Source: a virus
Length of the DNA: 28,161 bases
Reading direction: 5' to 3' (one strand)
IMG/VR virus record: IMGVR_UViG_3300010883_000308
Coordinates: 1-28,161 of that record
A program made the position numbers and the translations under genes. Position 1 is the first letter of the stretch. Every line of letters starts with the position of its first letter. Below the pieces are notes generated by a model, which was not told where the DNA came from, did no database searches, and saw only the letters and a program-made list of their open reading frames with translations. Positions 9,271-28,161 of this stretch are shown here, one piece after another.

Positions 9271-9459
9271 ATGTCTATACCGAAAGCAAAAAAGAATGAA
9301 TCCACGCAATCATTTATGTACAGATGTTTGTCTGACACTTTTATGATTCAAGAATATAAAAACAAAACTCAAAGAGTAGCAATCTGCTCATTAGAACTAA
9401 GAAAAAGAGATGAAAAAGTTAAAAATCAAAAGCTTAAAATCCAACAAAAAAAATCCTAG
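9271..9459 (+). CDS. Small RC/AIC-motif phage protein
   Basis: A 62-residue protein, MSIPKAKKNESTQSFMYRCL and on. The block ESTQSFMYRCLSDTFM ... QRVAIC (residues about 10-40) matches a short conserved unit (FMxRCMSDxxM...QRxAxC) seen as a small separate protein or at the ends of structural proteins in several phages. Cys19 and Cys39 could bind metal. The C-terminus is very basic (KRDEKVKNQKLKIQQKKS) and overlaps the ParB-like gene by 50 bases. Function unknown. Location suggests the packaging/modification block. Confidence 0.6.
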   Translation: MSIPKAKKNESTQSFMYRCLSDTFMIQEYKNKTQRVAICSLELRKRDEKVKNQKLKIQQKKS

Positions 9460-10201
9460 AGTAATAAGGGATGATAAATTTATAAAATTAAAAAAATCAA
9501 TTACTGAATTTCCTATAATGATGGAAATGCGACCTATTGTAATAGACAAAGACAACATTGTGCTAGGTGGTAATATGAGATTAAAGGCTTGTACAGATTT
9601 AGGGTGGAAAGAAGTTCCTACAATTTTTTATGGTCTTAAAGAATGGGAAGAAGCTGAATCTAAATTACCAGTTGAAATTCGTAAAACCTATGAAGAAAGA
9701 TGTGATGAGTTTATAGTAAAAGATAATGTAGGTTTTGGAGAATGGGATTGGGATGTTTTAGCCAATGAATGGAATAACAAACAAATCACAGATTGGGGTT
9801 TAGATGTCTGGCAAGATGATGCAGTTGATGAATTTGATGAAGCTGAAACAGAAAACGAATATTCAACTAAGATAAATGCCCCAGTTTATGAAACGCAAGG
9901 AGATAAACCAGAGGTACAAGAGCTTTTCAATACAGATAAATACAAGAAGTTTGTAAGTAAAATTGAATCAAGTAAAGTACCAGATGATGTAAAAGATTTC
10001 CTTATGGTTGCAGCAAGTAGGCATATCGTATTTGATTATTCAAACATTGCAGAATATTATGCTCACGCAAACAAAGATTTACAAGAATTAATGGAAGATT
10101 CAGCACTTGTAATAATTGATTTTGATAAGGCTATTGAGAATGGATATGTTAAGCTTAGTGAGGAGCTAAAAAATGAATACAAAAACACTTATGAAAAATA
10201 A
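9410..10201 (+). CDS. ParB-like nuclease-domain protein
   Basis: A 263-residue protein. The N-terminal 1-80 is a ParB/sulfiredoxin-like domain: NPRVIRDDKFIKLKKSI, RPIVIDKDNIVLGGNMRLKA (the GGNxR loop of the family), and GWKEVPTIFY. A middle section (GFGEWDWDVLANEWNN, WGLDVW) is common in ParB-type proteins of phages. The acidic linker and the C-terminal block (EYSTKINAPVYE, AASRHIVFDYSNIAEYYAHA, SALVIIDFDKAIENGYVKLS) form a conserved extension also seen in other phage ParB-like proteins. ParB-like domains in phages bind or cut DNA or assist DNA modification; genuine chromosome-partition roles need ParA, which is absent. It overlaps the glycosyltransferase-like gene, which suggests joint action. 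Confidence 0.78.
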   Translation: MKKLKIKSLKSNKKNPRVIRDDKFIKLKKSITEFPIMMEMRPIVIDKDNIVLGGNMRLKACTDLGWKEVPTIFYGLKEWEEAESKLPVEIRKTYEERCDEFIVKDNVGFGEWDWDVLANEWNNKQITDWGLDVWQDDAVDEFDEAETENEYSTKINAPVYETQGDKPEVQELFNTDKYKKFVSKIESSKVPDDVKDFLMVAASRHIVFDYSNIAEYYAHANKDLQELMEDSALVIIDFDKAIENGYVKLSEELKNEYKNTYEK

Positions 10202-11051
10202 AGACTTTGTAGCTTTTATACTTACACATGGAAGACCTAACAATGTAATAACTATTGAAAGTCTTAAAAAGTGTGGTTATACTGGTAGAGTAATTATTGT
10301 TATTGATAATGAAGATGAAACATCAGAAGAATACTACAAAAAATTTGGTAAGGATAATGTAGTAATGTTTGACAAATTAGAAATGTCAAAAACTTTTGAT
10401 GAAGCTGACAATTTTAAAGACAGAAAATCTATCGTATACGCTAGAAATGCTTGTTTCAATATTGCAAAAGATTTAGGTATTAAATACTTTATTCAACTTG
10501 ATGATGATTACACCACATTTAGATTTGCCAGTAATGAGAAAGAAGAATACATTACTTCAAATACTGCAATCAATAACCTAGATAATATTTTTGATTCATT
10601 ATTAAAATTCTACAAGAGTACAAGCATAAAAAGTATTGCAATGGCTCAAGGTGGAGATTTTATTGGGGGGATAAAAAGCAGAGTTTGGAAAGAGAAACTT
10701 CCTAGAAAATGTATGAATAGTTTTATATGTTCAACAGACAGACCTTTTCAATTTATGGGTAGACTAAATGAAGATGTAAATAATTACACTAAAAATGCTA
10801 GTTTAGGTCAGTTGTTTTTTACAACAGCACTTGTAAGGTTAGAACAAAAACAAACTCAAAGTAGTGAGGGTGGAATGACTGATATTTATTTAAACAATGG
10901 AACATACATAAAGTCTTTTTATTCTGTCATTTTCAGTCCCTCAAGCGTTACAATAGCTTTAATGGGAGAAATTAATAACAGACTACATCATAGAGTAAAT
11001 TGGAATGCCACAACACCTAAAATACTTGATGAAAAATACAAGAAAGTATGA
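10173..11051 (+). CDS. DNA-base glycosyltransferase-like protein (TAGT type, GT-A fold)
   Basis: A 292-residue protein with GT-A-like features: FVAFILTHGRP (12-22), VIDNEDETSEEYYKKFG, YARNACFNIAKDLGIKYF (89-106), then LDDDYTTF with D110-D112 as the metal/nucleotide-sugar binding triad, GRLNEDVN (196-203) as a probable catalytic region, and the end NRLHHRVNW. The pattern matches the TAGT (TET/JBP-associated glycosyltransferase) class predicted to add sugar to hydroxymethylated pyrimidines in phage DNA. I know this family by motif, not by alignment. No TET/JBP dioxygenase, thymidylate-synthase-like hydroxymethylase or kinase is visible in the window, so the acceptor base is unknown. The ATG at 10173 overlaps the ParB-like gene by 29 bases; an ATG at 10191 overlaps by 11 and is also possible. 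The stop overlaps the small terminase start. Confidence 0.75.
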   Translation: MNTKTLMKNKDFVAFILTHGRPNNVITIESLKKCGYTGRVIIVIDNEDETSEEYYKKFGKDNVVMFDKLEMSKTFDEADNFKDRKSIVYARNACFNIAKDLGIKYFIQLDDDYTTFRFASNEKEEYITSNTAINNLDNIFDSLLKFYKSTSIKSIAMAQGGDFIGGIKSRVWKEKLPRKCMNSFICSTDRPFQFMGRLNEDVNNYTKNASLGQLFFTTALVRLEQKQTQSSEGGMTDIYLNNGTYIKSFYSVIFSPSSVTIALMGEINNRLHHRVNWNATTPKILDEKYKKV

Positions 11052-11419
11052 ACAAAACCGAACAACATAAAAAAGCAATCATTGAAGCACTAGAGAAATC
11101 ATTAGGTATTGTTACTACGGCTTGTAAGAAAGTAGGTATCGGTAGGACACAATATTACCAATGGCTTATAGATGATAAAAAATTTTCAGAGGAGGTAGAC
11201 GATATTCAAAATATTGCTTTAGACTTTGCAGAAAGCCAATTACATCAACAAATAGGAGATGGTAACACATCAGCTACCATTTTCTACCTAAAGACTAAAG
11301 GAAAAAAGAGAGGATATATTGAGCGAAGCGAATTGGATGTGTCAACAGATGATAGAATACAAATACAGATAACACCTTTTGAAGAAACACAAGATAACAT
11401 TATTTCAGAAGCAGATTGA
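11048..11419 (+). CDS. terS: Terminase small subunit
   Basis: A 123-residue protein directly upstream of the large terminase. The N-terminal helices with a helix-turn-helix (GIVTTACKKVGIGRTQYYQW, residues about 20-39) would bind the packaging site on phage DNA. The central helical segment (DIQNIALDFAESQLHQQIGD) suits oligomerisation, and YLKTKGKKRGYIER is characteristic of the small terminases of this type. The acidic tail (ITPFEETQDNIISEAD) may contact TerL. It shares ATGA with the stop of the glycosyltransferase gene, and its end overlaps TerL by 41 bases. Confidence 0.82.
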   Translation: MNKTEQHKKAIIEALEKSLGIVTTACKKVGIGRTQYYQWLIDDKKFSEEVDDIQNIALDFAESQLHQQIGDGNTSATIFYLKTKGKKRGYIERSELDVSTDDRIQIQITPFEETQDNIISEAD

Positions 11420-12695
11420 ATGCTTTAAATATTTAGAAGATGACCATACAACGGAAGTCTTATTTGGTGGAGGAGCTGGGGGTTCAAAAACCTTTACTGG
11501 TTGCCTTTGGCAGATTACTCGTAGACTACAATATCCAAACACTAGAAGTGTCATAGGTAGGTCTAAACTAAAGAATTTAAAAAGCACAACCCTCAATACA
11601 TTTTGGGAGGTAGCTATCAATTATTGTGGATTAGTTCCGAATAGAGATTTTACATTTAACGCATCAGATAGTACAATAAAATTCTACAATGGTTCTGAAA
11701 TATACCTAAAGGATTTATTTTTATATCCATCAGATGCTGAGTTTACAAGTTTGGGAGGGCTAGAAATTACAGATTGTTTTGTAGATGAAAGTTCAGAAGT
11801 AACTGAGAAAGCAATAAATATTTTAAATTCTCGTATCAGATATAAACTAGATGAATATAATCTAATACCAAAAACTCTTTTGACTTGTAATCCATCAAAA
11901 GGATGGTTGTATACTCAATTCTATAAACCAGCCTTAACGAATAATTTACCCAGTCACAGAAAATTTATTAAATCCCTTGTTACAGATAATAAAGCAATAT
12001 CAAAACACTACATATCACAATTAGGGAAACTAGATAAGATAAGTAAGGAAAGGCTTTTATTTGGTAACTGGGAATACAACGATGATGATGCCCTACTATT
12101 TGATTATGATAGCTTACAAGATATGTTTACTAATGAATATGTAGAAGAAGGAACAAAAATTATTACTTGCGATGTCGCTAGATTTGGGGATGATAAGACT
12201 GTAATATGTTTATGGAATGGATTAAGGCTGGAAAAGATTTTAAGCTTTGATAAAACCAGCGTATTAGAAGTTGTTACAGAAATAAATACAATGTGCTTAA
12301 AATATGGAATACCAAACTCAAAAGTAGTAATTGATTCTGATGGTGTTGGTGGTGGTGTAAAAGATTACATATCTGGTAGTGTTGGATTTACAAATGGTGG
12401 GAAAGCTTTAAAAGGAGAAAATTACCAAAACCTTAAAACCCAATGTTATTACAAATTAGCAGAAGTCGTTAATGCTGGGGGATTATACATATCTGATACT
12501 AGATATAGGGATTCAATAATTAGTGAACTAGAGATAGTTAAAAGGGCAAAGGTCGATAAGGATAGTCAGAAGCTATCTATCGAAGGAAAGGATATACAAA
12601 AAACAAAGCTAGGTCATTCCCCAGATTATGCAGATGCTATTATGATGAGAATGTGGTTTCATATTAAAAAGAACTATGGAGAGTATGCGTTCTAG
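11379..12695 (+). CDS. terL: Terminase large subunit (packaging ATPase and nuclease)
   Basis: A 438-residue motor protein with both domains complete. ATPase: variant Walker A GGGAGGSKT (30-38), Walker B ITDCFVDESSE (130-140), and coupling motif TLLTCNPS (167-174). RNase H-like nuclease: CDVARFGDDKT (264-274), VVIDSDGVGGG (316-326), and GHSPDYADAIMMR (412-424), which together supply the metal-binding aspartates. The start is TTG at 11379, inside terS. No in-frame ATG lies upstream of the Walker A motif, and residues KITLFQKQIECFKYLEDDHT before it are needed for the family's N-terminus. The sigma-like gene starts 20 bases inside its 3' end. Confidence 0.95.
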   Translation: MKKHKITLFQKQIECFKYLEDDHTTEVLFGGGAGGSKTFTGCLWQITRRLQYPNTRSVIGRSKLKNLKSTTLNTFWEVAINYCGLVPNRDFTFNASDSTIKFYNGSEIYLKDLFLYPSDAEFTSLGGLEITDCFVDESSEVTEKAINILNSRIRYKLDEYNLIPKTLLTCNPSKGWLYTQFYKPALTNNLPSHRKFIKSLVTDNKAISKHYISQLGKLDKISKERLLFGNWEYNDDDALLFDYDSLQDMFTNEYVEEGTKIITCDVARFGDDKTVICLWNGLRLEKILSFDKTSVLEVVTEINTMCLKYGIPNSKVVIDSDGVGGGVKDYISGSVGFTNGGKALKGENYQNLKTQCYYKLAEVVNAGGLYISDTRYRDSIISELEIVKRAKVDKDSQKLSIEGKDIQKTKLGHSPDYADAIMMRMWFHIKKNYGEYAF

Positions 12696-13230
12696 GAAAT
12701 ACCATCCAATTGAGTATGTCTACAAGGACTACAATTATTATCTAGGTTTTGCAATAAAAAAAACTAAAGATAAATTTCTGTCTGAGGATTTGGTTCAAGA
12801 GGTGTTTCTCCAGCTACTTACAATGAACCATCACAAGCTACTTATCATTTTAGATGGTGGTAAAATTAAGACCTACATTTGTAAAATAATGATGGTCAAG
12901 TATTATTCTAATAAATCACAATTCCATAAGAAGTATGTCAGATATAATAATTTAAAAATACGACCAGTAAACAACGATTCTTTTATTGAAAAAATGATTA
13001 ATGAGCAAAGTGAATATCAAGATGGTATATTGGAAATGGAACATAAGATAAATCAATGTCTTAAAACGATGGATGTTTACGATGCAAAAGTCTTTAATCT
13101 ATATTATGAAACTGGTTTGTCGTTTAAAAAGTTAGAGAAGGAAACTGGAATAAGCCAAAGGTCGTTACGGAACACAATAACAAAAGTAAAAGAACAGATT
13201 AAAAACATATTAAATGAAGCTAAAAAGTAA
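12676..13230 (+). CDS. RNA polymerase sigma-70 family-like factor
   Basis: A 184-residue protein with two sigma regions. Residues 35-50 (LSEDLVQEVFLQLLTM) match sigma region 2.2 (DLVQEVF), the contact to core polymerase. Residues about 125-178 (INQCLKTMDVYDAKVFNLYY, then FKKLEKETGISQRSLRNTIT and KVKEQIKNIL) form region 4 with its HTH (150-170). Region 2.3/2.4 is compressed and the basic stretch is unusual (KKYVRYNNLKIRPVNN). Most likely it redirects host RNA polymerase to late phage promoters. It overlaps terL by 20 bases and the zinc-ribbon gene by 17. An alternative start is ATG at 12685. Confidence 0.75.
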   Translation: MESMRSRKYHPIEYVYKDYNYYLGFAIKKTKDKFLSEDLVQEVFLQLLTMNHHKLLIILDGGKIKTYICKIMMVKYYSNKSQFHKKYVRYNNLKIRPVNNDSFIEKMINEQSEYQDGILEMEHKINQCLKTMDVYDAKVFNLYYETGLSFKKLEKETGISQRSLRNTITKVKEQIKNILNEAKK

Positions 13231-23624: not shown

Positions 23625-24230
23625 ATGACTAAAATAGTAGAACTAATTATTTCTGAGGAAGAAATGGAAAATCAAGATGGGGTATTTGCAATATCTCTAG
23701 TAGAAGAACCAGCGATTGAAGAAAATTGGATTGCTCTAAAAAAGCAAAAACAAAAAGTTATTCAATGTGCTAAAATTGATGAAGACAAAAGGCTTCTTAT
23801 TGCTCCAGCTTTAATACCTAATAAACAAATCTTTAGGTTAGATGAGGAAGGAAAAGATTACTATGTGTACTTTTCAAAAGACACTATTCAAAAAGCATCA
23901 CAATTATTTTTAGAAAGAAAGCACCAATCAAATGCTACTTTAGAACATAGTTTAGAGCTTGAGGATATTCATGTAGTTGAAAGCTGGATAAAAGAATCAG
24001 CTATTGACAAATCTGTGAATTATGGATTTGAGCATTTACCGAAGGGAACATGGTTCGTTACTATGAAAGTAAACAACGATGACATTTGGGCTAAAGTAAA
24101 AGAAGGCGAAATTAAAGGCTTTTCAATAGAGGGATATTTCACAGATAAGCTAAAAAGATTCAGTAAAAAATCTGATGCTGACGAGAAATTAGTAAATAAA
24201 ATCAAGGAAATTTTAAGAAGTGAATGCTAA
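23625..24230 (+). CDS. XkdF-like prohead serine protease
   Basis: A 201-residue protein of the XkdF/S78-related type (Peptidase_S78_2). The N-terminal FAISLVEEPAIEENWIALKK (21-40) is characteristic. RLLIAPALIPNKQIFR and YYVYFSKDTIQKAS follow. The candidate catalytic His is H108 in ATLEHS, and the candidate Ser is S167 in GFSIEGYF, preceded by GTWFVTMKVNNDDIWAKVKE. It would cleave the scaffold and capsid during head maturation. It lies directly upstream of the scaffold-like and capsid genes, as expected. Start context: AAAACCAAAATTATG. Confidence 0.8.
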   Translation: MTKIVELIISEEEMENQDGVFAISLVEEPAIEENWIALKKQKQKVIQCAKIDEDKRLLIAPALIPNKQIFRLDEEGKDYYVYFSKDTIQKASQLFLERKHQSNATLEHSLELEDIHVVESWIKESAIDKSVNYGFEHLPKGTWFVTMKVNNDDIWAKVKEGEIKGFSIEGYFTDKLKRFSKKSDADEKLVNKIKEILRSEC

Positions 24231-27233: not shown

Positions 27234-28161
27234 AAAAAAAATACAAGGAAACGCTGACTATCATTTTTCATCTGTTGGTTCAACATACGATTTGACTGAT
27301 GCCGTAGAATTAGACAAAAAAGGTTTTGAATACATTTGGTATGGTGTGGATAATTTATACCCTCAACATACCATTAATTTATACCAAAATTCGGCTACAC
27401 ACAACGCTCTAGTGAACTCAATCTCTGGTTGGATATATGGTGGAGGTATTGATGCAGATAATAAGTTACTTCATCCAGAACAATGGGCTAGATTTAATAG
27501 TCTAATAAATAAGAAAATCGGTAAAAACGATATTCAGTTAATGTGCATGGACTTGAAACTTCATGGTGGATTTTATGTTTCTTTAACTTACTCATTAGAT
27601 AGAGAAAGTATTGCATCTATGGATGTTATACCATTCGAAATGATGCGTTCTGGACACGCAAATGAAGATGGAGATGTTGAACACTATTATTACTCAAATA
27701 ATTGGGTAGAAGGTAGGAGAGCGAACATTAAAAAGATGAAGTCCTTTAATCCAGACTGCAAAAAAGAATATCCAACTCAAGTGCTATGTGTTAAAATGAA
27801 TACTGTTGGTTCGTATTACTATCCAAAACCAGATTATATAGGTGCATGGAATTATATTGAACTAGACAAAAATGTTTCACAATATCATTTATCACAAATT
27901 GAAAAAGGATTAGCTCCAAGCTATATAATTAATTTCGCTAATGGGATTCCAGCTAGGGAGAAGCGAGAACAGATTAAAAATCAAATTGAAATGGAACTTG
28001 CTGGTTCTCAAAATGCTGGTAAATTCCTATGTACATTTTCAGATGGTAGAGATACTACTCCAGAGATTACTCCAGTTCCTTTATCTGATGCTGACAAACA
28101 ATACCAATTTTTAAGTGAAGAAATTACTAAAAAAGTAATGATTTCACATAGAGTAGTTTCC
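27226..28161 (+). CDS. Portal protein, 5' part (gene continues at base 1)
   Basis: The first 312 codons of the portal protein, starting with ATG at 27226 inside the end of the previous gene. The last 119 bases equal the window start, so the gene continues at base 120 into the part ending at 1256. Recognisable features: FEYIWYGVDNLYPQHTINLY and NSATHNALVNSISGWIYGGG (portal N-terminal region), then FYVSLTYS, MDVIPFEMMRSGHANEDGDV, and a C-terminal half with NYIELDKNVSQYHLSQIEKG, LAPSYIINFANGIP and FLCTFSDGR. This is the typical order for HK97-type portals of Bacteroidota phages. Complete length about 690, well above the usual 400-500 residues, due to the C-terminal extension. Confidence 0.9.
   Translation, partial: MARKKIQGNADYHFSSVGSTYDLTDAVELDKKGFEYIWYGVDNLYPQHTINLYQNSATHNALVNSISGWIYGGGIDADNKLLHPEQWARFNSLINKKIGKNDIQLMCMDLKLHGGFYVSLTYSLDRESIASMDVIPFEMMRSGHANEDGDVEHYYYSNNWVEGRRANIKKMKSFNPDCKKEYPTQVLCVKMNTVGSYYYPKPDYIGAWNYIELDKNVSQYHLSQIEKGLAPSYIINFANGIPAREKREQIKNQIEMELAGSQNAGKFLCTFSDGRDTTPEITPVPLSDADKQYQFLSEEITKKVMISHRVVS
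28043..28161. repeat. Terminal direct repeat, right copy (contig overlap)
   Basis: Identical to bases 1-119, with the preceding portal codons in frame. Marks the join of a circular assembly; the unique genome is about 28,042 bp. Confidence 0.95.

Follow-up and report, generated by a model that had tools for sequence, protein, structure and literature searches.

How a phage could make use of a TAGT-type glycosyltransferase while carrying no recognizable enzyme that would hydroxylate the bases of its DNA is the question raised by the IMG/VR virus record IMGVR_UViG_3300010883_000308, a stretch of 28,161 nucleotides that was analyzed over its full length (the window). To our knowledge, all characterized phage DNA glycosyltransferases act on hydroxymethylated or hydroxylated pyrimidines. 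The original prediction for this locus had described a ParB-like gene overlapping a GT-A-like glycosyltransferase gene directly in front of the terminase genes, and had inferred either an unusual acceptor or an unrecognized small protein for the first step. According to the analysis reported here, the constant partner of the TAGT enzyme is a C-terminal domain of the ParB-like protein, for which the name YnaK-C was coined, whereas the ParB domain is optional. The pair is best explained as a two-protein accessory DNA glycosylation module that would need no separate phage hydroxylase, a reading to which a probability of roughly one half is assigned.

The YnaK-C/TAGT gene pair

The genes and domains in question are arranged as follows:

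9410 to 10201, plus strand: ParB-like partner protein of 263 amino acids, with N-terminal ParB/Srx-fold domain, disordered linker and C-terminal YnaK-C domain (profiles, AlphaFold2 model)
9410 to 9736, plus strand: ParB N-terminal domain, residues 1-109, optional in the family (PF02195, 27.6 bits; structure match)
9860 to 10162, plus strand: YnaK-C domain, residues 151-251 (conserved arm and helical block)
10173 to 11051, plus strand: TAGT glycosyltransferase of 292 amino acids, GT-A fold, with HGRP, LDDDY and NEDVN motifs (PF20691, 4.2e-34; AlphaFold2 model; GT-A matches)
11048 to 11419, plus strand: terminase small subunit, terS (phrog_309, 5.3e-7; HTH_8)
11379 to 12695, plus strand: terminase large subunit, terL, with TTG start (Terminase_3, 1.5e-11; phrog_2, 5.3e-31)

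The predicted gene order, including the overlaps of 4 bases between TAGT and terS and of 41 bases between terS and terL, was borne out. As annotated, the reading frames of partner and TAGT share 29 bases; because the homologs begin at an equivalent position, the TAGT start is probably the ATG at 10191, which would leave an overlap of 11 bases with the partner gene. Profile searches likewise upheld the assignment to the TAGT type: Residues 15-233 aligned to positions 4-204 of the 205 of Pfam PF20691 with 118.7 bits (cut-off 27.5), and phrog_842, labeled "beta-glucosyl-HMC-alpha-glucosyltransferase", was matched at 4e-72. The HGRP, LDDDY and GRLNEDVN motifs are present in the window protein, and among 52 homologs D110-D112 and D201 were invariant and E200 was conserved in at least 90%, in agreement with the DxD and ED signatures. 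The structure prediction that had been proposed as a check gave a confident GT-A fold (AlphaFold2, predicted local distance difference test (pLDDT) 91.5).

The N-terminal part of the partner protein is a ParB-type domain by profile (PF02195 cut-off 26.3 bits; phrog_620 "ParB-like partition protein", 1.7e-27), by its motif GGNMRLKA with the GxxR signature, and by structure, its AlphaFold2 model matching the CTP-binding M. xanthus ParB (7bnr/7o0n) with a Z score of 12.8 over 89 residues at a root-mean-square deviation of 1.7. Against parB_part, the NCBIfam model of full-length ParB partition proteins, the score was 16.2 bits (cut-off 58.45), and residues 94-128 may form a helix-turn-helix-like stretch. 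YnaK-C itself comprises about 110 residues, with an arm of the consensus YTxKIxxPxYEP followed by a helical block, AAxRHxVFxYxxIAxYYAHA...SALVIIDFDKAIENGY. In the model of the window protein, helices predicted at pLDDT above 90 make up the core of the domain (residues 170-230), and the linker to the ParB domain is disordered; Y151, R204, Y217, E229 and D237 are invariant polar residues and H205 is near-invariant. Standalone YnaK-C had no match in Pfam or NCBIfam. Its best sequence relatives in the PDB (E value 0.014) were designed repeat proteins and were judged to be chance matches, and in the structure search with the window partner model the list was filled by the ParB domain, with YnaK-C matches only at Z of about 2, a result that does not by itself establish a new fold.

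The ParB domain was initially considered as the TAGT partner, a candidate that was dropped since many partners, encoded by genes of only about 130 codons, consist of YnaK-C alone: 94 standalone forms stood against 112 ParB-fused ones, and the ParB domain was absent from 94 of 207 partners. In consequence, the suggestion that the ParB-like protein chooses the site of modification is not supported as it was put, approximately half of the related phages having YnaK-C without ParB.

Loci were retrieved with either of the two genes as query, the best 80 of each scan being read, and the TAGT-found and YnaK-C-found loci were pooled. A TAGT gene lay within 300 bp of 202 of the 211 YnaK-C genes and within 2.4 kb of 8 more, the last YnaK-C gene running off its contig; only 3 of 232 TAGT reading frames stood in a locus lacking YnaK-C (two of them at the end of a contig, one a truncated TAGT fragment, L208). 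The upstream overlapping gene was homologous to the ParB-like protein of the window in nearly all TAGT relatives from IMG/VR, and the window pair falls within the 2.4 kb that define the module. No natural fusion of the two was seen among these 211 and 232 genes. In 50,697 phage records YnaK-C was detected in 28, all among the 36 with TAGT; the other 8 were Porphyromonas phages with a diverged partner and Cequinquevirus phages with broken modules. Of 395 Bacteroidota genomes one contained YnaK-C, namely the genome already known.

The pair also proved to be minimal. Among seven complete but unrelated phages compared all against all, six bacterial and one archaeal (the window; Lactobacillus phages c5 and phi jlb1; Haloarcula virus HHTV-2; Nocardia phage NTR1; Salmonella phage SPF_0923; Porphyromonas phage 005a), exactly two families were common to all seven, the YnaK-C protein and TAGT, and any other family was present in at most three. 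A conserved first-step enzyme elsewhere in the genomes is therefore unlikely, unless unrelated enzymes replaced one another between lineages; should there be one, it is either supplied by the host or is the partner domain itself.

The search for a first step and the acceptor

The TAGT class is said to have been defined by Iyer and colleagues in 2013, the base J system (JBP/JGT) and GREB1 reportedly being TAGT-related glycosyltransferases; the base J system differs from the window pair in that it needs 5-hydroxymethyluracil made by TET/JBP. Whether the absence of such an enzyme from the window carries meaning depends on the completeness of the record, which is given by an exact repeat at its ends:

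1 to 119, no strand: terminal repeat, left copy, 119 bp (identical to the right copy)
28043 to 28161, no strand: terminal repeat, right copy, 119 bp (identical to the left copy)

The record is thus a complete genome, circular or terminally redundant, of 28,042 unique bp, in which the portal gene spans the junction. Pfam scans of 48 open reading frames revealed no Tet_JBP or other dioxygenase, thymidylate-synthase fold, radical SAM protein or DNA methyltransferase, and searches of the genome with PF12851 (Tet_JBP) and PF00303 were negative while their positive controls were detected: T6 (gp42 included) for PF00303, and gp2 of Mycobacterium phage Nigel for PF12851, at 4.2e-8 yet under the curated cut-off of Pfam. 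The window accordingly has neither the association with TET/JBP or a pyrimidine hydroxymethylase, the context that gave TAGT its name and is unneeded for membership by sequence, nor the PF00303 hydroxymethylase of a T-even-type pathway, as had been predicted. A match of the window to phrog_1530, labeled "DNA methyltransferase", was traced to the XkdF-like head maturation protease (23625-24227), which matches the far end of that profile; the label probably derives from another domain of the profile.

A count of such genes in other phages had been suggested as a check. Tet_JBP was absent from every module record scanned (the Nigel control being detected below the Pfam cut-off), and PF00303 was absent from 42 of 44 YnaK-C/TAGT records, T6 again being recognized; the two exceptions are large-genome relatives, Vibrio phage pv27 and G018. 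These two agree with a classical pathway in which an unrecognized host or phage enzyme would make a 5-hydroxymethyl (or hydroxyl) pyrimidine that TAGT glycosylates as in the T-even phages, as do two rumen loci in which a radical SAM gene separates YnaK-C from TAGT, and the use of such bases by all characterized DNA glycosyltransferases of TAGT type. However, only the pair is common to all seven complete genomes, the two hydroxylase families are missing from nearly all records although the controls were found, and for hosts as diverse as haloarchaea, Lactobacillus and E. coli no shared source of such bases is known. A hidden first step of this kind is hence regarded as improbable. The inference of an unusual acceptor or an unrecognized first step was a fair one, given a genuine TAGT and no recognizable hydroxylase, but its variant of a small gene encoding the hydroxylase is unlikely in view of the two-gene minimality.

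The first step could also reside in YnaK-C itself, which might act as a small oxygenase or transferase that activates the base, with TAGT capping the product in a complete two-step pathway. Such a role would suit a constant domain with invariant polar residues whose sequence resembles no known fold, and in T6 the gene that overlaps TAGT from upstream codes for a dCMP hydroxymethylase. In the model, however, the helical core spans only about 75 residues, small for an oxygenase, no cofactor motif was recognized, and the invariant residues are equally compatible with a protein interface; this alternative is likewise considered improbable.

The beta-glucosyl-HMC-alpha-glucosyltransferase of T6/T2 shares PF20691, the GT-A fold, the DD and ED motifs and an overlapping upstream gene with the window TAGT, and the T6 enzyme is documented to put a second glucose onto glucosyl-hydroxymethylcytosine (PMC13216743, PMC13390438). 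In contrast to the window, its upstream gene is gp42, the alpha-glucosyltransferase gene lies elsewhere and YnaK-C is missing, as is the C-terminal GTYxKSFYSV...PSS...RLHH block of the window-type enzymes. With only 37.2 bits for the T6 enzyme against the same PF20691 model, the window protein is the more typical TAGT. Phage TAGTs lacking an accompanying alpha- or beta-glucosyltransferase have already been counted as "solitary" in 288 of 753 phage genomes, and novel transferases were suggested there (Nucleic Acids Res 2026, PMC13216743); that text contains neither the term ParB nor Rac prophage, and a partner gene, the missing hydroxylase and a two-gene module were not found in it. Literature searches likewise returned no report of a domain as obligate partner, of its occurrence without ParB, of a minimal set of two genes or of the Rac copy, and none of direct DNA glycosylation; Iyer et al. 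2013 lay outside their coverage and may note a link between ParB and TAGT.

In the two-protein DNA glycosylation module favored here, TAGT would be the catalyst, a GT-A enzyme transferring a sugar from a nucleoside diphosphate sugar, and YnaK-C, translated from the overlapping gene, would be its obligate partner subunit; where present, the ParB domain would serve as a DNA-loading extension, as on other phage DNA-modifying enzymes. The pairing, the family membership, the lack of known hydroxylases, purifying selection and recurrent loss are shown by the data; we infer that the two proteins form a complex, that DNA accepts a sugar through some linkage, and that the mark serves against restriction: The TAGT:YnaK-C complex would glycosylate a canonical position directly, or a handle that YnaK-C or the host provides. 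The phage would thereby evade host restriction, and this would also account for the patchy distribution and repeated loss of the module. The narrower claim that TAGT and YnaK-C need no base hydroxylated beforehand to glycosylate DNA, whether a canonical base receives the sugar as it is or YnaK-C first activates it, is tentative.

Several observations weigh against DNA as the acceptor. The only TAGT in this comparison with a known product, that of T6, is 19% identical to the window protein in the multiple alignment and not linked to it by direct profile comparison; the standalone partners have no known DNA-binding domain; and most of the solved folds nearest to the TAGT model belong to glycosyltransferases of proteins or polysaccharides (GalNAc-T2, cellulose synthase, GnT-I and chondroitin polymerase, among many tied at Z 12-14). 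Furthermore, the TAGT-related human GREB1 has been reported to modify a receptor protein, as far as can be taken from a reference cited in PMC9044904. The main rival explanation is accordingly that the module glycosylates a protein (terminase, capsid, host nucleoid or defense protein) which YnaK-C would present as an adaptor. It would make a hydroxylase unnecessary, it agrees with the presence of protein glycosyltransferases among the closest folds, with the RefSeq name "GREB1-related" of the E. coli enzyme and with the position of terS and terL directly downstream in most ParB-fused loci. Nevertheless, the fold gives no acceptor identity because the nearest structures all score around Z 12-14, DNA is the substrate of the best-known phage TAGT, DNA methyltransferases and a TET/JBP locus share the ParB-type domain, and the terminase is not a general target since the standalone forms lie mostly away from terminase genes. 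Protein as the acceptor thus seems rather unlikely. DNA would appear to be the likelier target, because the ParB-type domain and the position beside terL recur with DNA-modifying enzymes and the T6 TAGT acts on DNA.

The ParB domain, the terminase genes and other neighbors

The recurrence of the ParB-type domain beside other base-modifying enzymes follows from two comparisons. In phage ParB-DNA methyltransferase fusions (phrog_498; PADLOC MTase_II) a homologous N-terminal domain heads a DNA-modifying enzyme; they differ from the window pair in their effector, a methyltransferase that works on bases without prior modification. With its ParB domain, E. coli YnaK aligns to the N-terminal part of type II methyltransferases headed by ParB (PADLOC, 1e-38), relatives of YnaK match phrog_498 "DNA methyltransferase" through this domain, and many of the 407 phage records that have it are annotated as DNA methylases; apart from the ParB-methyltransferase model, the defense-system library gave no match. 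In the Coopervirus locus of Mycobacterium phage Nigel the same domain (4.6e-17) stands at the head of base-modification genes beside the terminase. Genes 1-4 encode ParB, a TET/JBP-like oxygenase, a P-loop nucleotide kinase and terL, and from their sequences appear to be a ParB-headed hypermodification locus, which differs from the window in having a base oxidase and a kinase and neither TAGT nor YnaK-C. Gene 2 (L262, 776-1744), annotated as "queuine tRNA-ribosyltransferase", is the TET/JBP-like oxygenase (Tet_JBP, 4.3e-6), and gene 3 (L262, 1786-2382), annotated as "terminase small subunit", is the kinase (PF18751, 2.9e-72).

The coupling to packaging genes put forward in the original prediction held for one architecture only: After removal of near-copies, 69 of 76 ParB-fused loci had terL no more than 3 kb downstream, compared with 5 of 21 standalone loci (Fisher 4e-9, uncorrected for relatedness). 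A relatedness-corrected test contained one supported independent pair and was underpowered; on a quick TAGT tree the partner architecture changes 14 times, of which only 2 changes are forced by well-supported branches. The coupling is consequently a property of the ParB-fused form and not of the whole system. That the module regulates packaging, with ParB marking the cos/pac region and TAGT modifying it to control terminase cutting, would fit this linkage and the cos site of phage c5 about 80 bp upstream of its parB gene; the standalone form, however, lies away from the terminase in 16 of 21 loci, and the phages LL-Ku, Ld25A and Ld17 with natural deletions were isolated and still propagate, so that this explanation is very unlikely.

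Other neighbors vary. In several rumen phages the pair adjoins genes that, by eye, resemble those for DNA polymerase and sliding clamp. The radical SAM gene that separates YnaK-C from TAGT in rumen phages (L102, 5381-6361; L104, 5338-6327) may extend the pathway by a further step, and CofD/YvcK-like plus MobA-like nucleoside triphosphate transferase genes in the same position in some rumen phages (L098, 3107-5477; L106, 2845-5285), or a cytidylyltransferase adjoining the cluster (L092, 7143-7589), possibly point to phage-made sugar nucleotides. Two or three tandem TAGT paralogs with one YnaK-C gene (L066, 9992-12526; L109, 3206-6303; L181, 5156-6837; L186, 641-2331) suggest sugar chains or several acceptors. 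A second, prophage-like TAGT subfamily (L239 in a Bacteroidota genome, 1354-2732, minus strand; L247-L257) is directly preceded by an overlapping ParB-like gene in 10 of 11 viral loci (L257 was unresolved by the gene caller) and lacks PF00303; it differs in its diverged TAGT of 248 amino acids and in the C-terminal partner domain (FSEKYxAFIIVCTNEIDENxxAExLG...CYKSxxVGxTHVI). In the window, a sigma-factor-like gene (12676-13230; phrog_1740, 4.6e-13; Sigma70 regions) directly follows terL.

The Rac prophage copy, recurrent loss and significance

The pair is also present in the Rac prophage of E. coli, where full-length YnaK (262-263 amino acids, ParB plus YnaK-C), TAGT, a small gene, terS and terL follow in that order, the TAGT being annotated in RefSeq as "GREB1-related protein" or hypothetical. 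At least 80% of both genes was covered in 885 of 5,426 complete E. coli genomes (about one in six), ATCC 8739 among them. In K-12 MG1655 ynaK ends at 87 amino acids, and YnaK-C and TAGT are gone; K-12 is thus a natural null for the pair by deletion. RefSeq (PGAP) calls ynaK a truncated pseudogene in the four strains examined (L231, 5712-6500; L232; L236; L237) despite an intact frame of 262-263 amino acids, in ATCC 8739 with the remark "incomplete, missing C-terminus", apparently owing to the use of K-12, whose ynaK arose by deletion, as the reference; strain c1-17 has its YnaK-C part annotated as "transcriptional regulator".

Among the enterobacterial copies the ratio of non-synonymous to synonymous substitution rates was 0.06-0.14 for TAGT, which is under clear purifying selection, and 0.14-0.32 for YnaK. 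In Cequinquevirus, c5, phiLdb and PMBT4 have kept the pair, whereas in LL-Ku, Ld25A and Ld17 three different deletions removed YnaK-C and crippled TAGT. The module is hence dispensable and easily lost; because of this recurrent deletion a conditional function, anti-restriction or another, would be expected rather than one in core packaging.

If the favored reading is true, a DNA modification chemistry that has not been described before would be widespread in bacterial phages, would occur also in an archaeal virus, and would have escaped notice in E. coli, where roughly one complete genome in six carries the pair in its Rac prophage. It would account for the role of part of the published "solitary" TAGTs, and the deletion in K-12 accounts for the odd 87-amino-acid ynaK gene. 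The question can be addressed directly with the pair from an E. coli Rac prophage (e.g. ATCC 8739), the K-12 laboratory host being the natural deletion. A pair that works without a hydroxylase would represent a new route around restriction and CRISPR, and possibly a one-pot tool for DNA labeling.

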